Position numbers and translations under genes: made by a program. From contig CP070771.1 of NCBI GenBank assembly GCA_020345785.1, forward strand, positions 1,382,560 through 1,388,747: 6,188 bases of DNA, read 5' to 3'. This DNA is from Desulfobacterales bacterium. Its GTDB lineage: Bacteria > Desulfobacterota > Desulfobacteria > Desulfobacterales > JAFDCJ01. This document shows, one piece after another, positions 2-6,188 of this stretch (the stretch's first letter is position 1; each line of letters begins with the position of its first letter). The notes beneath the pieces are model-generated. The model was given only the letters and a program-made list of their open reading frames with translations, made no database searches and had not been told where the DNA came from.

Positions 2-181
2 GAATTCGGCATTGACTGCTTGATTGAATTGGTACCTCGAAACACCTTACCTAGAACTACATCTGGAAAGCTATCCCGCTCCGGAGCACGGACAGAGTAT
101 CTGAAGCGGATTGCCGCTGAAGATGCCATAGAAGCCGGCGAGGATCTTTACGCCGCAGCGCTCCGTCAGCGGGCCGTCTAA
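2..181 (+). CDS. aasR: Acyl-ACP synthetase / fatty acyl-AMP ligase, C-terminal end only (partial)
   Basis: Only the last 59 codons are present; the gene enters from the left edge in the frame starting at base 2 and stops with TAA. The fragment reads through the C-terminal subdomain of the ANL (adenylate-forming) superfamily. The A10 motif LPRTTSGKLSR lies at fragment residues 16-26, with the catalytic lysine at fragment residue 23, which in this family drives the adenylation half-reaction on the carboxylate. The SGKLSRSGAR-EYL continuation is of the fatty acyl-AMP ligase/acyl-ACP synthetase style rather than that of classical acyl-CoA synthetases, but the diagnostic N-terminal part lies outside the window. 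It lies 72 bp before the ceramide-reductase-like gene and upstream of a dedicated ACP and serine palmitoyltransferase. The likely role is therefore ATP-dependent loading of a fatty acid onto that ACP, as AasR does in Caulobacter. The symbol rests on context; the superfamily call is firm. Confidence 0.8.
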   Translation, partial: EFGIDCLIELVPRNTLPRTTSGKLSRSGARTEYLKRIAAEDAIEAGEDLYAAALRQRAV

Positions 182-227
182 CCTGGACTTAATTACCAAG
201 AAGCCATATATAAACAATGAATTATAC

Positions 228-255
228 ACTGATCAAATCGTTTAAACTGATCAGT
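228..255. repeat. 8-bp perfect inverted repeat overlapping the annotated cerR start
   Basis: The arms ACTGATCA (228-235) and TGATCAGT (248-255) are perfect reverse complements separated by 12 bases. ACTGATCA also occurs again as a direct copy at 246-253, because its core TGATCA is self-complementary. The right arm covers the first two bases of the GTG at 254, so the site could be an operator or an RNA hairpin at the translation start. No function is known to me; the structure is seen directly and the role is inferred. The rest of the 72-bp gap between the synthetase stop and this start shows no clear promoter. Confidence 0.4.
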
Positions 256-1210
256 GCAGGATAAGTCTTTGCGAAAATCTGACACAATAGCATTAACAGG
301 GGCAACCGGATTTATCGGTGCCACGCTGGTCCAACGATTGGCAGCCAGCGGTCGTAAAATTCAAGCCCTGATACGCCCTGCTTCAAAACATAAGCGACCA
401 CTCGCGGCTGCGGTCAGGTGGGTCGAAGGTGATCTTGAAGACATGGATAGTCTGCATCGTCTGGTTAAAGGAGCCGATGCGGTGATACACTGCGCCGGCA
501 CGGTTCGCGGTGCCACCCGAGAGCAGTTCAATCGTGTCAATGCTGATGGATTGGCGCGACTGGTAAACGCGACGAAGCACCAGCACCCGATGCCGCGCTT
601 TTTATTGATATCATCACTGGCAGCCCGGGAACCGCACCTGTCGCATTATGCCGCCAGTAAACGACAGGGGGAAAAGTTGCTGGCTGACAAATCCAACCAA
701 CTGTCCTGGACGATCTATCGGCCGTGCGCAGTTTACGGTCCGGGGGATCGGGAGATGCTGCCGATCTTGCGATGGATGACAAGGGGCATCGCTCCGATGC
801 TGGGAGACGGCAGCGGTCGTTTCTCCCTGCTTTATGTAAAAGATCTGGCGGAAGCAGTCGTACAATGGTTGAATTGCAATTGCTGTCAATCAGGCACATA
901 TGAGGTGCATGATGGACATCCCGGAGGCTATTCATGGCGCGATGTGATCGACACCGTTGGACAATTGCGTGCCAAATATGTTTTGCGTTTAAAAATACCG
1001 TTGGTTCTGGTCAGGCTGGCAGCGGCCTTTAACCTTTTTGGCGCCCGAACTTTCGGTTATGCGCCCATGCTGACCCCCGGCAAAGTGCGCGAACTGTGCC
1101 ATCCCAACTGGATTTGTGATAACACAGCGCTGAGCGCTGCCACGGGATGGTCGCCACGAATCTCACTGGTGGAAGGATTACAGCAAACATTAAGCTGGAA
1201 CAAGGCCTGA
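254..1210 (+). CDS. cerR: Ceramide reductase-like NAD(P)-dependent epimerase/dehydratase (extended SDR)
   Basis: A 318-residue extended short-chain dehydrogenase. The nucleotide-binding glycine motif TGATGFIG is at residues 15-22, an acidic VEGDLED stretch at 58-64 follows the expected beta strand, serines 120-121 precede the catalytic YxxxK (Y132, K136), and RPCAVYGPGD at 156-165 is the usual SDR substrate-side segment. Length fits the family. A short hydrophobic stretch at about 247-262 may touch the membrane. Between an acyl-ACP synthetase and an ACP/Spt pair, the best reading is CerR, which in Caulobacter reduces the 3-oxo group of the N-acylated sphingoid base to give ceramide. A sugar epimerase role is the main alternative. 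The start is uncertain. An in-frame stop at 248 limits the upstream extension, so GTG 254 is the longest form, but it has no Shine-Dalgarno sequence. TTG at 269 has AGGA seven bases upstream and would give 313 residues that still include the glycine motif. Confidence 0.78.
   Translation: MQDKSLRKSDTIALTGATGFIGATLVQRLAASGRKIQALIRPASKHKRPLAAAVRWVEGDLEDMDSLHRLVKGADAVIHCAGTVRGATREQFNRVNADGLARLVNATKHQHPMPRFLLISSLAAREPHLSHYAASKRQGEKLLADKSNQLSWTIYRPCAVYGPGDREMLPILRWMTRGIAPMLGDGSGRFSLLYVKDLAEAVVQWLNCNCCQSGTYEVHDGHPGGYSWRDVIDTVGQLRAKYVLRLKIPLVLVRLAAAFNLFGARTFGYAPMLTPGKVRELCHPNWICDNTALSAATGWSPRISLVEGLQQTLSWNKA
258..261 (+). promoter_or_regulatory. Candidate ribosome binding site favouring the internal TTG start of cerR
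   Basis: AGGA lies seven bases before the in-frame TTG at 269, which is normal spacing. The GTG at 254 has no purine-rich sequence in the usual window upstream. This supports TTG 269 as the true start, although TTG is the rarer start codon and the N-terminal residues before the glycine motif cannot decide it. Confidence 0.35.
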
Positions 1211-1226
1211 ACCGGGATTCGGCCTT
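1202..1226 (+). other. Hairpin spanning the cerR stop codon
   Basis: AAGGCC (1202-1207) pairs with GGCCTT (1221-1226). Inside these, GAA (1209-1211) can pair with TTC (1218-1220), leaving a six-base loop and one bulged T. The TGA stop of cerR sits in the left arm. No T-tract follows, so this is not a standard intrinsic terminator. It may protect the 3' end of the upstream message or slow transcription before the acp gene. Confidence 0.35.
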
Positions 1227-1369
1227 AGATGGGAGCCCATATTCAGTTCGCACTCGGATCCGAGGTTTCTTCTGTCCCTTGACACTTGAAACCTGCCTGC
1301 CCTCCGCAGCCTGAAAGGCGTAGGGGGGACACCTGAAACCAATCTGTTAAAAAAGGGAATGTCAGACGC
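1211..1369 (+). promoter_or_regulatory. 159-bp spacer between cerR and acp with several symmetric elements
   Basis: No coding sequence is evident here. It holds a perfect 12-bp palindrome CTCGGATCCGAG (1253-1264) and two near-identical 13-mers, GACACTTGAAACC (1281-1293) and GACACCTGAAACC (1328-1340). Two nested complementary pairs are also present: GGTTTC (1264-1269) with GAAACC (1335-1340), and GTCCC (1274-1278) with GGGAC (1326-1330). A small hairpin GCCT-GAA-AGGC lies at 1309-1319. An exact TTGACA at 1279-1284 has no matching -10 box. AAGGGA at 1353-1358 is the likely ribosome binding site of acp, 11 bases from its ATG. The spacer could be a regulated leader that gives acp-spt their own promoter or a folded 5' UTR, but no known riboswitch class was recognised. 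Confidence 0.35.
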
Positions 1370-1618
1370 ATGCATCTCAACGAAAATATTCTAGAAGAAT
1401 TAACGAAAATACTAAAACAATTTGTTCCTCAGGGACAGTCGATCAATGCAGAAACGGATCTGGTGGCTGATCTTGGTCTTGATTCATTAAAAGTAATGAA
1501 AATTCTGGAATCCGTGGAAGACAGCTTTGATATCTCGATCCCATTAAATGTGCTTCCGGACGTCCGCACGGTGAAAGACTTTGTTCTGCAGATTCAAAAA
1601 CTTGAAGGGGAAGGATGA
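1370..1618 (+). CDS. acpR: Acyl carrier protein dedicated to sphingolipid synthesis
   Basis: An 82-residue acidic acyl carrier protein of normal family length. The phosphopantetheine attachment site is Ser39 in the motif DLGLDSLKVM (34-43), followed by the acidic recognition helix (E47, E50, D51). The start ATG has AAGGGA 11 bases upstream. Its stop TGA overlaps the ATG of the serine palmitoyltransferase gene (ATGA), so the two are probably translationally coupled and made together. In Rhodobacteria a specialised ACP of this kind supplies the acyl thioester to Spt in place of acyl-CoA, and this gene sits where that acpR is expected. It is probably loaded by the upstream acyl-ACP synthetase. 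The 5' part of the gene is visibly more AT-rich than spt. The ACP call is certain; the sphingolipid-specific role rests on context. Confidence 0.9.
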   Translation: MHLNENILEELTKILKQFVPQGQSINAETDLVADLGLDSLKVMKILESVEDSFDISIPLNVLPDVRTVKDFVLQIQKLEGEG

Positions 1619-2820
1619 AAATGGGCATCTTTGATAAATTCGGGCAGCTGGCGGCAGCCCGCAAGGAGCTGGAGCAAAGCTGCGATAATTTCTTCAATAT
1701 CATTATAGATGATATCATTTCGGGTACCGAAGCCGTTGTAAACGGGCGCCCGATGATTCTTGCCGGCAGCAATAACTATCTGGGGCTGTCTTTTGATCCG
1801 GACTGTATCGACGCCGCCTGCCAAGCCGTCCGCAAGGAGGGCACCGGCACCACTGGATCAAGGATGGCCAACGGAACATTTTCAGGGCATGTGGCGCTGG
1901 AGCGGGAGCTGGCGGACTTTTTCAACCGCCAGGGTGCCATTGTCTTTTCGACCGGCTATGTTGCCAACCTGGCCATGCTGTCGACTCTGGTCGGCCCCGG
2001 TGAAATCATCCTGCTGGATGCCGATTGCCATGCCAGTATTTATGACGGCTGCCGTCTGGGGGGTGCCGAAGTCCATCGCTTCCGGCACAACGACCCGCAG
2101 GATCTTGAAAAGCGGTTGCGGCGGCTTGAAAAGCGCAACACCAATATCCTGGTGGTTGTCGAAGGGCTTTACAGCATGCTGGGCGACCGCGCGACGCTGG
2201 CCGAGATCGTCGCCGTCAAAGACAGATACGGCGCCTATCTGCTGGTGGATGAGGCGCATTCCCTGGGTGTGCTGGGTGCCCACGGACGCGGACTGGCCGA
2301 AGAGGCCGGCGTAGAGGACGGGGTGGATTTTGTCGTCGGCACTTTCAGCAAAAGCCTGGGGGCCATCGGCGGTTTCTGCGTCAGCAACCATCCCGAGCTC
2401 AACCTGGTCCGGTATGCCAGCCGCCCCTACGTTTTCACGGCGTCGTCGTCGCCATCCGTTATTGCCTCCACCCGCGTGGCCCTGCAGATTTTGAAAACCA
2501 GATCTGAACTGCGGCAACGCCTCTGGGAAAATGCCAACATGCTGTACCAAAAACTGCAGGACCTGGATTTCCAGGTGGGACCGGAGCCCAGCCCGATTGT
2601 GGCGGTCACAATGGAAGACAAAAACGAAGCCTTTGCCCTCTGGAGCGGCCTGCTCGAACGCGGGGTATATGTCAATCTGGTTTTGCCGCCGGCCACACCG
2701 GACGGCAACTGCCTGCTGCGCTGCAGTGTGAGTGCCGCGCACACCCCGGCGCAGATGGAGCGAATTTGCGAAGCGTTTGCGGCTGTCAGGCAAGCAACTT
2801 CAGTGGCTCAAATCGGTTAA
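1615..2820 (+). CDS. spt: Serine palmitoyltransferase (PLP-dependent alpha-oxoamine synthase)
   Basis: A 401-residue fold-type I PLP enzyme. It condenses L-serine with a long-chain acyl thioester, releasing CO2, to give 3-oxosphinganine, the committed step of sphingolipid synthesis; bacterial forms are soluble cytoplasmic homodimers. Visible features are GTGTTGSRMANGTFSGH (76-92), H139 in DADCHASIYDG (the PLP-stacking histidine), the cofactor aspartate D212 and H215 in VDEAHSLG, the Schiff-base lysine K246 in GTFSKSLGAIGGF, RPYVFTAS (270-277) and the PPATP loop at 358-362 followed by LLRCS (R369). FCVSNHP, RPYVFTAS and PPATP favour SPT over the related AONS, KBL and ALAS enzymes. One oddity is that the residue before PPATP is Leu357, where I recall Arg378 in the Sphingomonas enzyme. 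The start at 1615 overlaps the acp stop by 4 bp; ATG 1621 is a near-equal alternative. Base composition is more GC-rich than its neighbours. Confidence 0.9.
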   Translation: MKMGIFDKFGQLAAARKELEQSCDNFFNIIIDDIISGTEAVVNGRPMILAGSNNYLGLSFDPDCIDAACQAVRKEGTGTTGSRMANGTFSGHVALERELADFFNRQGAIVFSTGYVANLAMLSTLVGPGEIILLDADCHASIYDGCRLGGAEVHRFRHNDPQDLEKRLRRLEKRNTNILVVVEGLYSMLGDRATLAEIVAVKDRYGAYLLVDEAHSLGVLGAHGRGLAEEAGVEDGVDFVVGTFSKSLGAIGGFCVSNHPELNLVRYASRPYVFTASSSPSVIASTRVALQILKTRSELRQRLWENANMLYQKLQDLDFQVGPEPSPIVAVTMEDKNEAFALWSGLLERGVYVNLVLPPATPDGNCLLRCSVSAAHTPAQMERICEAFAAVRQATSVAQIG

Positions 2821-2969: not shown

Positions 2970-4733
2970 ATGCGTCTGCTAACAACATTCATTCGTCGTT
3001 ACCCCTCACACAGCGCGTTCATGGTGTTCGCACTGTTGGTTTCCGGCGTCCTGGAGGGTATCGGCTTCTCCATGCTGCTGCCGATTTTGAGCATAGCGGC
3101 AGGCAAGCAGTTCGGCGGTGATAACGATGCCGCGCTCGCACGCTTGGTTGCCGATGGATTTGCGGCCATCGGAGTCGCTCCCACGGTCGGCAGCTTGCTG
3201 CTGGTTCTAATCATCGCAGTTACCCTGAAAAGCATATTGGTGTTACTAGCAAAAAAACAGGTCGGTTACACAGCCGCGCGTGTTGCTACCGACTTGCGGC
3301 TGGAGATGCTGCAAGCGCTGCGCAACAGCCGCTGGCAGTATTTCCTCAAGCAGCCTATCGGTCAGTTGGCCAACTCCATGGCCACCGAGGCCGCCCGGGC
3401 CTCCAGTTCCTATATGCACGGCGTCATAATGATCGCCGATTTTATCCAATTTTGTGTATACGGCGTCATCGCATTTCTCATATCCTGGCAGGTGACGCTC
3501 ATCGCGATAACGGCGGGGCTCGTTATCGTCTGCGGCTTGAAATATTTTGTTCGCAAGGCGCGCCGCGCCGGCATGCGTCAAACCGAACTGCTGAAATCAT
3601 TACTGGTTCTGTTGACGGACACGCTGCAATCCATAAAACCCTTAAAGGCCATGGGCCGGGAAAATGTGTCGGATTTTCTGTTGAAAAAAATGACCAACCG
3701 TCTCAACCGGGCGCTGCAAAAACAGGTGCTGAACAAGGAAATATTGAAAACCTTTCAGGAGCAGATGGAAACCATTGTTCTTGCAGCCGGCCTTTACATT
3801 ATGCTGATATACTGGAAAATGCCGCTGCCCAGTATTATTGTCCTTATTTTACTGGTTTCCAAACTGCTCAAACAGTTGAATAAAGTTCAAACGCGCTATC
3901 AGGAGATGGCAATTCTCGAAAGTGCCTACTGGTCGCTGAAAGATTCAATTGAGGTAATGCAGCAGGAGCGTGAAACCCTGGCGGGGAACCGGACACCGGA
4001 GTTGAGAAAATCAATCCGTTTGGATCGGGTAAGTTTTGCCTATGATAACAATTATGTTTTGCAGGAGGTCTCGCTTGTTTTTCCAGTGGGCCGCATAACC
4101 GCTATTTTAGGCCCTTCAGGATCCGGTAAGACAACCATCGTTGATCTGGTCACCGGTCTGTTAAGACCGCAAAAAGGCAAGGTCTGGATCGATGAAGTGC
4201 CGCTGGTCGAACTGGATCTTAAATTTTGGCGCCGCCAGATTGGCTATGTCGTCCAGGAACCGATTTTGTTGCACGATACCGTATTGAACAATATTACGCT
4301 CGGGGATCCGGAGCTCAGTGAGAATGATGCCGTAGATGCTCTGCGTGCTGCCGGTGCCTGGCAATTCGTCGCATCGCTGCCCCACGGAATAAAGAGCATC
4401 GTCGGCGAGCGCGGCGGTAAGCTCTCGGGCGGCCAACGGCAACGGATCGCCATCGCACGAGCCATCGTACACCGCCCCAAGCTGCTCATCCTTGACGAGG
4501 CAACAAGCGCACTCGATCCCCAGAGCGAAGCGGCCGTGTGCGAAACCCTGCAGAATCTGAGCGGGAAGCTGACCATCCTGGCCATATCGCACCAAGCGGC
4601 TTTAGTAAAGATAGCGGATATAACCTATCATATTGAAAATGGAATAATTGTATCAACCGAAAAAGATGCCGCAGACCAGCCGGGTGAAGTTGGCATCAAA
4701 GCGAATTCTGTTCGCAAGCAGCAAAGGATTTAG
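2970..4733 (+). CDS. Half-size ABC exporter (TMD-NBD fusion), lipid or lipid-linked glycan flippase type
   Basis: A 587-residue type IV ABC exporter half-transporter expected to work as an inner-membrane homodimer. About six membrane segments are visible, near residues 17-40, 74-94, 150-171, 172-191, 263-283 and 286-303. The ATPase domain from about 350 has every motif intact: Walker A GPSGSGKTT (381-389, K387), Q-loop Q429, signature LSGGQ (485-489), Walker B LLILDE (505-510, catalytic E510), D-loop SALD (513-516) and H-loop H541. The TM1 motif LEGIGFSMLLPIL (28-40) and the long TM1-TM2 loop (about 41-73) resemble PglK-type flippases of lipid-linked oligosaccharides more than MsbA. Placed between sphingolipid genes and sialic-acid-type genes, it may flip a sphingolipid or a glycan-lipid to the periplasmic leaflet, but the substrate cannot be read from sequence. 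ATG 2970 has no clear Shine-Dalgarno and an in-frame stop lies at 2946; Met18 (3021) is a less likely alternative. Confidence 0.85.
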   Translation: MRLLTTFIRRYPSHSAFMVFALLVSGVLEGIGFSMLLPILSIAAGKQFGGDNDAALARLVADGFAAIGVAPTVGSLLLVLIIAVTLKSILVLLAKKQVGYTAARVATDLRLEMLQALRNSRWQYFLKQPIGQLANSMATEAARASSSYMHGVIMIADFIQFCVYGVIAFLISWQVTLIAITAGLVIVCGLKYFVRKARRAGMRQTELLKSLLVLLTDTLQSIKPLKAMGRENVSDFLLKKMTNRLNRALQKQVLNKEILKTFQEQMETIVLAAGLYIMLIYWKMPLPSIIVLILLVSKLLKQLNKVQTRYQEMAILESAYWSLKDSIEVMQQERETLAGNRTPELRKSIRLDRVSFAYDNNYVLQEVSLVFPVGRITAILGPSGSGKTTIVDLVTGLLRPQKGKVWIDEVPLVELDLKFWRRQIGYVVQEPILLHDTVLNNITLGDPELSENDAVDALRAAGAWQFVASLPHGIKSIVGERGGKLSGGQRQRIAIARAIVHRPKLLILDEATSALDPQSEAAVCETLQNLSGKLTILAISHQAALVKIADITYHIENGIIVSTEKDAADQPGEVGIKANSVRKQQRI

Positions 4734-4774: not shown

Positions 4775-4798
4775 GCGATATTATATTTAAGTGCGCAT

Positions 4799-4803
4799 AA
4801 GGG
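4799..4803 (+). promoter_or_regulatory. Candidate ribosome binding site deciding the phosphatase start
   Basis: AAGGG lies 11 bases before the ATG at 4815. The alternative in-frame GTG at 4791 has no purine-rich sequence at usable spacing upstream. The spacing is slightly long, so the support is moderate. Confidence 0.35.
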
Positions 4804-4814
4804 TTAAGTTTAGC

Positions 4815-5345
4815 ATGGCCCCGGAAAATACATTAGATAGTATCGAAGAAGTCATCCGGCGTATTCGCCTGATCGCCTTTGATTTCGACGGGGTGTTTAC
4901 CGACAATATGGTTTATGTATTTGAAGATGGCCGCGAGGCCGTGCGGTGCTTTCGAAGCGACGGGATTGGGTTGCACAAGCTAAAAAAATTAGGAATTGAA
5001 ACCGTGATTATCTCCACCGAAGCCAACCCAGTCGTTTCGGCCCGTGCGCGCAAATTGAATATTCGCTGCATCCAGAACTGTCAGGATAAACGCGCCGCCC
5101 TGCAGGAAATTGCTCGGGAAAAAAAGGTTGCTTTAGACCAGGTAGCTTTTGTCGGCAACGATATTAACGACTTAGCCTGTCTCGAATTTGTCGGGCTGCC
5201 CATTGTGGTGCAGGATGCCCACCGGGATATTCTGGCAACGGCGCGCTATCAGACGAAAAATCCGGGCGGTCGCGGTGCGGTAAGGGAGGTCTGTGATTTG
5301 TTTGAACGAGTACTGGCACAAAAAGGATTGAAGATTGAAAATTGA
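4815..5345 (+). CDS. KdsC/CMAS-C-type HAD phosphatase, probable nonulosonate-phosphate phosphatase
   Basis: Read from ATG 4815 it has 176 residues, close to the usual length of capless (C0) KdsC-type HAD phosphatases; a GTG at 4791 would add eight residues but lacks a ribosome binding site. HAD motif I is DFDGVFTDN (nucleophile D23, acid/base D25), motif II is the IIST strand (65-68), motif III is K92 in QDKRAAL, and motif IV is GNDIND (114-119; D116, D119 for Mg2+). The C-terminal GGRGAVREVCDLF is typical of the family. The ISTEANPVVSARARKL stretch resembles the phosphatase domain fused to bacterial acylneuraminate cytidylyltransferases more than true KdsC. With a NeuB-family gene next door, it probably dephosphorylates a sialic-acid-like or Kdo-like sugar phosphate in the cytoplasm; Kdo-8-phosphate remains possible. 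The last five codons and stop are part of a repeat arm. Confidence 0.82.
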   Translation: MAPENTLDSIEEVIRRIRLIAFDFDGVFTDNMVYVFEDGREAVRCFRSDGIGLHKLKKLGIETVIISTEANPVVSARARKLNIRCIQNCQDKRAALQEIAREKKVALDQVAFVGNDINDLACLEFVGLPIVVQDAHRDILATARYQTKNPGGRGAVREVCDLFERVLAQKGLKIEN

Positions 5346-5547: not shown

Positions 5548-6188
5548 ATGCGCAAACTCATACTGGACGGCAAAGTCATTCAGGATAACAGTGATTGCTA
5601 TGTGATCGCCGAGATCGGGCACAACCATCAGGGCAAGCTCGAAACCGCCAAGGAAATGTTCCGGGTAGCCAAAGAATGTGGGGCTGACGCGGTAAAATTG
5701 CAGAAACGAGACAACCGCAGCCTGTTTACCAAGGCCGGCTATGAGAAGCCTTATGACAACCCCAACAGCTACGGAGATACCTACGGCGAACATCGGGAGT
5801 ATTTAGAGTTCGGCTGGATAGAATATAAAGAACTCCTGGATTACGCCAATGAAATCGGAATTACAATGTTTGCCACCGCCTTTGATTTTAGCAGCGCTGA
5901 TTTTTTGGAAAAGCTCGATATGCCAATATATAAAATCGCATCGGGTGATCTGAAAAATATTCCCCTGCTCACCCACATTGCCGAATTTCAAAAGCCGATG
6001 ATACTCAGCACCGGCGGAGGAACCATGGCGGATGTCAACCGGGCCTATGACGCCATCATGCCCATCAACCAGCAGCTGTGCATTCTGCAATGCACGGCAG
6101 GCTACCCGGCGGAATTCGAAGAACTCAATCTGAATGTGATCACAACTTTCCGTGAACGGTTTCCCACCACCACCATCGGTTTGTCCTC
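5548..6188 (+). CDS. neuB: NeuB-family nonulosonic acid synthase, N-terminal part (runs off the window)
   Basis: An open frame of 213 codons with no stop, continuing past the right edge. NeuB enzymes condense phosphoenolpyruvate with an N-acyl-hexosamine (ManNAc, its 6-phosphate, or a di-amino sugar) to form sialic, legionaminic or pseudaminic acid in the cytoplasm. The PEP-binding TIM barrel is recognisable: AEIGHNHQG at 21-29 (conserved E22), AVKLQKR at 48-54 (K50), a GDTYGEHREYLEF segment at 76-88, YKIASGD at 128-134 (K129), ILSTGGG at 152-158 and LQCTAGYPA at 180-188. Full-length members have about 340-360 residues, with metal-binding histidines and a C-terminal SAF (antifreeze-like) domain expected beyond the edge. 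The start is well supported by GGGAGGA six bases upstream. The upstream phosphatase suggests a phosphorylated intermediate, as in the 9-phosphate route, but which nonulosonate is made cannot be read here. Confidence 0.88.
   Translation, partial: MRKLILDGKVIQDNSDCYVIAEIGHNHQGKLETAKEMFRVAKECGADAVKLQKRDNRSLFTKAGYEKPYDNPNSYGDTYGEHREYLEFGWIEYKELLDYANEIGITMFATAFDFSSADFLEKLDMPIYKIASGDLKNIPLLTHIAEFQKPMILSTGGGTMADVNRAYDAIMPINQQLCILQCTAGYPAEFEELNLNVITTFRERFPTTTIGLS

Follow-up and report, generated by a model that had tools for sequence, protein, structure and literature searches.

A predicted acyl carrier protein-dependent ceramide cassette with a linked candidate exporter in Desulfobacterota

Do four adjoining genes of a Desulfobacterales bacterium form a pathway for ceramide synthesis, has this pathway travelled as a unit, and what is the role of the transporter encoded right behind it? 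These questions are raised by a stretch of 6,188 nucleotides (hereafter, the window; assembly GCA_020345785.1, contig CP070771.1, positions 1,382,560 to 1,388,747), in which the end of aasR, cerR, acpR and spt are followed by a gene for an ATP-binding cassette (ABC) exporter. Our reading, to which we assign a probability of about three in four, is that the window carries an acyl carrier protein (ACP)-dependent ceramide cassette of a Desulfobacterota bacterium with a dedicated exporter encoded behind it. This reading builds on the identities and order of the genes, their co-inheritance, and the statistical as well as physical linkage of the exporter to the cassette. The features of the window are the following:

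2..181, plus strand: 3' end of aasR (fatty acyl-AMP ligase/acyl-AcpR synthetase), 59 amino acids, cut by the window edge
254..1210, plus strand: cerR, probable ceramide reductase of the extended short-chain dehydrogenase/reductase (SDR) type (epi in PMC9386255), 318 amino acids, in the clade of BL21 CerR, with a YxxxK motif
1370..1618, plus strand: acpR, specialised acyl carrier protein, 82 amino acids, PF00550, with the serine of GLDSL
1615..2820, plus strand: spt, serine palmitoyltransferase, 401 amino acids, NF047599, in a tree with BL21 Spt
2970..4733, plus strand: MsbA-like, non-MsbA ABC exporter and candidate sphingolipid flippase, with ABC_membrane and ABC_tran domains, linked to spt
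4791..5345, plus strand: KdsC/YrbI-type ulosonate-phosphate phosphatase, TIGR01670 at 111.6 bits (cut-off, 106.95)
5548..6188, plus strand: 5' part of a neuB-like ulosonic acid synthase gene, PF03102, cut by the window edge

The protein encoded at 1615-2820 is assigned to the serine palmitoyltransferases, and condensation of serine is its predicted reaction. It cannot be a chance open reading frame because it scores 637 bits on the curated model NF047599 (cut-off, 500), on which Spt of Escherichia coli BL21 reaches 599 bits, and shares 54% of 391 aligned residues with BL21 Spt; on the bioF model, it reaches 342 bits, below the cut-off of 426. The distant relatives L024-L027 and L029 score 168-261 bits on NF047599 over the stretch matched. 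Among structures in the Protein Data Bank (PDB), Spt chains such as 2jg2 rank best, and H139, D212, H215, K246 and R369, which we take to be the pyridoxal phosphate-binding lysine and active-site residues of Spt, are conserved within motifs common to 2jg2. In a tree of 54 sequences, several outgroup branches of which are long, the window Spt groups with those of loci L001 (support 100/98) and L003 (98/99) inside a 31-sequence clade that also holds BL21 Spt (100/100). Outside this clade fall E. coli Kbl and BioF, two HemA proteins (L024, L025), three BioF-like proteins (L026, L027, L029) and a 16-sequence group from Desulfobacterota (89/84) to which we return below. This placement rules out an 8-amino-7-oxononanoate synthase (AONS), a 2-amino-3-ketobutyrate CoA ligase (KBL) or a 5-aminolevulinate synthase; the grouping with AONS or KBL against which the original prediction had warned was not found. 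L002, L006, L010, L013, L021, L028, L105 and the short duplicates L044-L057 were left out of both the Spt tree and the CerR tree described below.

An enzyme of this kind might instead take alanine, cysteate, lysine or another acyl donor, giving rise to a 1-deoxyceramide, a sulfonolipid or a similar product. The amino acid used by Spt cannot be fixed from sequence alone, and 1-deoxyceramides and sulfono-1-deoxyceramides have been linked by co-abundance to Desulfobacterota, Bacteroidota or both (PMC11334938; here and below, papers given by PMC number are cited for the portions available). Nevertheless, we consider this alternative quite unlikely: the window Spt exceeds the curated cut-off, carries the catalytic motifs of 2jg2 and is placed with BL21 Spt, which is reported to serve 3-oxo-sphinganine synthesis (PMC9386255), whereas 28eh, a solved structure of cysteate-C-fatty acyltransferase, reaches a much lower score (208.6 versus 441.4 bits).

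The protein encoded by cerR has an Epimerase fold, contains the YxxxK motif as YAASK and shares 44% identity with BL21 CerR across 305 residues. In a tree of 51 sequences (L059 was dropped for coverage), it groups with L001 and L003 (99/93) within a 31-sequence clade that includes BL21 CerR (99/98), and five sugar-nucleotide SDRs lie outside this clade, on long branches, which rules out a sugar-nucleotide epimerase, the second grouping that the original prediction had singled out as damaging. The ACP is 48% identical to BL21 AcpR over 63 residues, contains the PP-binding domain PF00550 and has the serine of GLDSL at residue 39. When AcpR sequences were trimmed to their last 86 residues and analysed with AcpP (44 sequences, few columns), 31 AcpR separated from 13 AcpP with support of 100/100, ruling out a housekeeping AcpP; the smallest supported group with the window consists of 3 sequences (99/96), and the nearest are those of L001 and L003. 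It could still be argued that the SDR acts as a sugar-nucleotide epimerase or some other reductase, that the ACP is a general one and that no ceramide is made. The window SDR matches no NCBIfam model at its cut-off, the best being OleD (82 bits; cut-off, 580) and HpnA (71 bits; cut-off, 367.65), and many of its relatives are named nucleoside-diphosphate-sugar epimerase by JGI. However, BL21 CerR itself yields only a sub-threshold HpnA match at E<=1e-20, synteny as well as the tree places the SDR with CerR, and the ACP falls outside AcpP, so that we regard this argument as very improbable.

The first gene is represented in the window by 59 codons only. These match the fatty acyl-AMP ligase model NF006624 at profile positions 529-564 of 567 (39.8 bits) and are 46% identical to BL21 AasR over 39 residues and 86% identical to the end of the complete aasR of L001, the product of which scores 797 bits (cut-off, 600). 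The gene is thus probably aasR, as judged from a short C-terminal tail and the full genes of relatives. The identities that the original prediction had given to Spt, CerR and AcpR are borne out by scores and trees, and that of AasR by this short tail.

By analogy with chemistry known from other bacteria, AasR would adenylate a fatty acid and load it onto AcpR, Spt would condense acyl-AcpR with L-serine to 3-oxo-sphinganine, the bacterial ceramide synthase (bCerS), encoded outside the window, would attach a second acyl chain, and CerR would reduce the keto group. AasR has been described to load AcpR, and Spt of Caulobacter, E. coli B and Sphingomonas to prefer acyl-AcpR (PMC9386255), and CerR is periplasmic in Caulobacter (PMC11087976). 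Presumably, the host uses this pathway, the exporter acts on a sphingolipid, and LptF/G contribute a step.

The four genes lie head to tail on the plus strand and the last two overlap, as had been predicted, with an ATGA at 1615-1618 in which the acpR stop meets the spt start (a further ATG stands at 1621). The gap between cerR and acpR (1211-1369, 159 bases) exceeds that of 21 of the 23 other loci measured, so that a single transcript of the cassette is not established; a promoter scan revealed no promoter-like site on the plus strand within this gap. Across the window, predicted promoters and terminators occur at about chance level (10 promoter-like sites versus 6.6 expected; 7 terminator-like sites versus 7.4 expected). 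A plasmid search with the whole window as query gave no match, and the nearest named relatives of its proteins come from the Olavius Delta 1 symbiont (Spt 87% identical) and from Desulfobacterales metagenome-assembled genomes (MAGs), relatives that by themselves place the host most likely in Desulfobacterota.

The same four genes, in the same order and on one strand, are found in E. coli BL21(DE3) (ECD_02851-02854), where direct inspection of the region revealed a divergent yghO followed by genes for a fatty acyl-AMP ligase, an epimerase-like protein, an ACP and Spt. The BL21 cluster differs from the window in that yghO, the bCerS gene, adjoins aasR, LptG/LptF genes lie behind spt, and a Wzx-like Polysacc_synt protein is encoded further behind. 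The gene set of Caulobacter crescentus (CC_1165-CC_1162 and CC_1154) is alike as well, a likeness that rests on published names and locus numbers rather than on sequences (PMC9386255, PMC11324152); by locus numbers, the order of CC_1165 to CC_1162 is that of the window, as had been stated in the original prediction (PMC9386255). On GTDB contigs, 23 Spt loci (L001-L023) were compared, and 17 of them have the order aasR-cerR-acpR-spt; L002, L006 and L010 are cut by contig ends, no aasR was found in L011, L013 lacks aasR and cerR, and in L021 cerR lies elsewhere. Calling the cassette of the window complete was nonetheless too strong, given that aasR is cut and that no match to the fifth gene, bCerS (CC_1154/yghO), was found within the window. 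The bCerS gene is present in 12 of 12 genomes of relatives, and lies about 3 kb upstream of aasR in L001. Two NTP-transferase families (C3 and C5) flank bCerS in many loci (L001:601-4801; L104; L110; L190), and possibly activate a sphingolipid headgroup.

We then compared the histories of the cassette genes using quick trees of 28 loci with 25 splits; the window, with its cut aasR, and L005, with a partial one, were excluded, and L001 stands in for the window. The trees of spt and aasR share 17 of the 25 splits, spt and cerR 14, cerR and aasR 14, and each of these genes shares 10 with acpR, whereas shuffled labels yielded about 0.2 on average and never more than 3. Because the shared splits are far above chance and because all three trees that include the window (Spt, CerR and AcpR) place it with L001 and L003, we conclude that the cassette genes are inherited together, as a block. 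Thus, of the earlier question whether the cassette moved as a unit, the part about a unit is supported, whereas transfer into the host lineage is not: although the non-rhodobacterial sequences do not form one clade in the Spt tree, their forced monophyly was not rejected (approximately unbiased test, p = 0.225; 22 sequences grouped as non-rhodobacterial, including L009, titled only Proteobacteria, versus 9), and therefore a recent transfer into the host lineage is unsupported. Acquisition from Alpha- or Gammaproteobacteria is, by the same result, not supported. Separately, the contig of an 'Acidobacteria' MAG (L012) and that of a Geobacter MAG (L014) closely resemble each other in their cassette and neuB island, a resemblance that reflects either transfer or misbinning.

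A survey of 297 genomes from the phylum of L001, Desulfobacterota, recovered an Spt-like match (E<=1e-90) in 46 and revealed two types of clusters. In type I (14 genomes), Spt is 59-87% identical to that of the window, and in type II (32 genomes), 40-46%. Among 16 type II loci inspected, cerR lies beside spt in all 16 and bCerS in 15, and none has an acpR match. The ceramide chemistry of type II is expected to be alike, with identities to the queries of about 30% for CerR and 30-37% for bCerS, but the type II Spts form the separate group mentioned above, and no exporter was matched within the flank of about 1.5 kb; the type II CerRs are separate from the CerR clade but weakly supported (84/45). 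In addition, a divergent pair of spt-like (37%) and aasR-like (36%) genes lies close to LptF/G, bCerS and the exporter in genome G068 (L096:1481-4655), and may represent a third type of ceramide cluster. The earlier statement that bacterial sphingolipid synthesis is restricted to certain lineages was overstated, considering that candidate producers have been listed in 40 phyla (PMC11334938).

The exporter shares the ABC exporter architecture with MsbA, but MsbA is ruled out as its identity. It scores 264.1 bits on the MsbA model TIGR02203 (cut-off, 602) and is 27% identical to E. coli MsbA; in a quick tree, 27 exporters of this family (the partial G123 copy, L112, was not used) cluster in a single clade (SH-aLRT 100) that excludes E. 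coli MsbA as well as the MsbA matches of the same genomes; and in each of 19 genomes (the 14 of type I and 5 exceptions described below), another exporter matches E. coli MsbA best (34-40%).

In the phyla surveyed, the presence of this exporter is strongly tied to that of the cassette. Of the loci L001-L023, 10 have a homolog (49-66% identical) downstream of spt, and the exporter is found within 1.5 kb behind spt in 11 of 14 type I loci, compared with 0 of 16 type II loci, for which a flank of about 1.5 kb was covered. In a genome-wide search that scored 4 candidates per genome, so that an ortholog could have been missed, orthologs (45-67% identical, E up to 1.2e-150) were detected in 18 of the 297 genomes, the next best two candidates being 29-31% identical. 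These comprise 13 of the 14 type I genomes and 5 of the 283 others (Fisher's exact test, 7e-18). The gene is adjacent to spt in 11 of these type I genomes and lies 6.5 kb away in G307 and 16 kb away in G291; in a second survey of nearly the same genomes, hence not independent, Spt and exporter of G011 are on different contigs. Four of the 5 exceptions have the exporter next to families of genes that border bCerS in cassette loci: its neighbours are LptF/LptG and an NTP transferase, close to a contig end, in G013; LptF/G, bCerS, two NTP transferases and the aasR-like and divergent spt-like genes in G068; and an NTP transferase that elsewhere flanks bCerS in G185 and G030, the latter with a second exporter copy. 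In the fifth, G025, it lies 5 kb from a neuB-like gene. LptF/LptG-family genes occur in several exporter or cassette loci, as in BL21. Furthermore, among 148 genomes of a second phylum (that of G005, titled Nitrospinota), the exporter is present in 2 of the 3 with this Spt (adjacent in G005, 21 kb away in G444) and in 0 of the 145 without (p = 3e-4, Fisher).

The single type I genome that lacks the exporter, G166, carries an additional, lineage-specific MsbA copy that is sister to the other MsbA of the genome. Its frame overlaps an NTP-transferase gene abutting bCerS (region L151:11096-14722), at a distance of about 12 kb from spt. That a copy of the lipid A flippase MsbA occurs in the sphingolipid region of the one type I genome without the exporter provides the best functional hint, albeit a hint, to the role of the exporter.

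Several observations weigh against a dedicated exporter or against the cassette being complete in the host. The Fisher tests ignore kinship, the completeness of the surveyed genomes is not stated, and in the exception G030 the Spt is of the other type and far from the exporter. Among 19 further genomes with this Spt type (that of L017 is not one of them), an exporter match (E<=1e-60) was obtained in 10 and none in 9, several of the latter being Alpha- and Gammaproteobacteria (G440, one of the nine, also figures in the second-phylum survey). The BL21 cluster has no exporter match in 23.5 kb, nor do the alphaproteobacterial loci L017, L018, L020 and L022, and a genome-wide search detected none in G461 and G463 and a 40% relative in G459. 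Finally, bCerS, a full aasR and lpt genes in the host are expected from its relatives. Thus, the exporter is common with the Desulfobacterota cassette type and not universal elsewhere.

Behind the exporter, the window continues with genes of a different kind. In PDB searches, the KdsC-like protein matches KdsC-type and acylneuraminate-cytidylyltransferase chains; the NeuB fragment scores 176 bits on TIGR03569 (whole-protein cut-off, 399.65) and has a full-length ortholog in L001 (91% identity over 213 residues). There, the genes behind the exporter encode a KdsC-like protein, NeuB, an SDR, an aldehyde dehydrogenase, a PseF-like CMP-transferase, a transketolase and a family 2 glycosyltransferase (GT2), and further on, two TIGR04396-like glycan proteins. 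In some other loci, phospholipase D (PLD)-like and TIGR04396 surface-carbohydrate proteins are encoded behind the exporter (L009:10218-12671; L109:6498-8941).

These neighbours lend themselves to the view that the cassette is real but that the exporter, the KdsC-like phosphatase and NeuB belong to an abutting surface-glycan locus, for an O-antigen, a capsule or a protein glycan, as the gene content of L001 would fit and given that this exporter fold also serves glycolipids (PglK is among the PDB matches). We hold this to be unlikely: in all 11 loci with both this Spt and the exporter, no neuB match was found in the stretch covered, exporter and neuB occur together in only 1 of 18 exporter loci (L098, without spt), and exporter and cassette presence are strongly tied in the Fisher tests.

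Conversely, all these genes might belong together, in an operon that makes and exports a ganglioside-like lipid, that is, a ceramide carrying a sialic acid-like ulosonic acid, with the sugar activated by the KdsC-type phosphatase, NeuB and a CMP-transferase (the last seen only in relatives) and the product flipped by the exporter. Downstream of spt, L014 and L012 have a small open reading frame, NeuB (36-37% identical to that of the window) and a fused CMP-transferase/KdsC, in frames that overlap or nearly touch (the fusion was seen by family scan in L014), and G444 has a CMP-transferase-like and a neuB-like gene. Three separate arrangements bring neuB within about 3 kb of spt. Across 27 cassette genomes, 32 neuB-like places were detected in 17 genomes; neuB lies within 10 kb of spt in 5 of the 27, in three arrangements, and 22 lack such a link. 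Random placement would lead to 0.17 genomes with neuB near spt (probability of 3 or more, 6e-4), but envelope genes cluster anyway, and this proximity is suggestive only. A literature search for spt together with neuB showed no relevant paper among the 10 matches listed of 149, many of which were probably to author names. An ulosonic-acid headgroup seems doubtful to us, and the case for it is weaker than that for a dedicated exporter.

For Caulobacter, second LptC/F/G copies have been proposed to function in transport, and CC_1166 has been called a 'potential flippase' (PMC11324152, PMC9386255); one paper notes that neither flippases nor lipid transporters had been identified for such lipids (PMC11087976), and another that their transport from the inner to the outer membrane is not known (PMC11324152). 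A full-text literature search, seen as titles and starts of abstracts and covering few subscription papers and no bioRxiv preprints, yielded no description of such an exporter.

The cassette itself is of a known kind, and the linked exporter is the new part. An ACP-dependent cassette of the Caulobacter and E. coli type thus occurs in Desulfobacterota, beside a second type without a neighbouring acpR. The cassette-tied exporter family, together with the duplicated MsbA of G166, provides a concrete candidate for a bacterial sphingolipid flippase.

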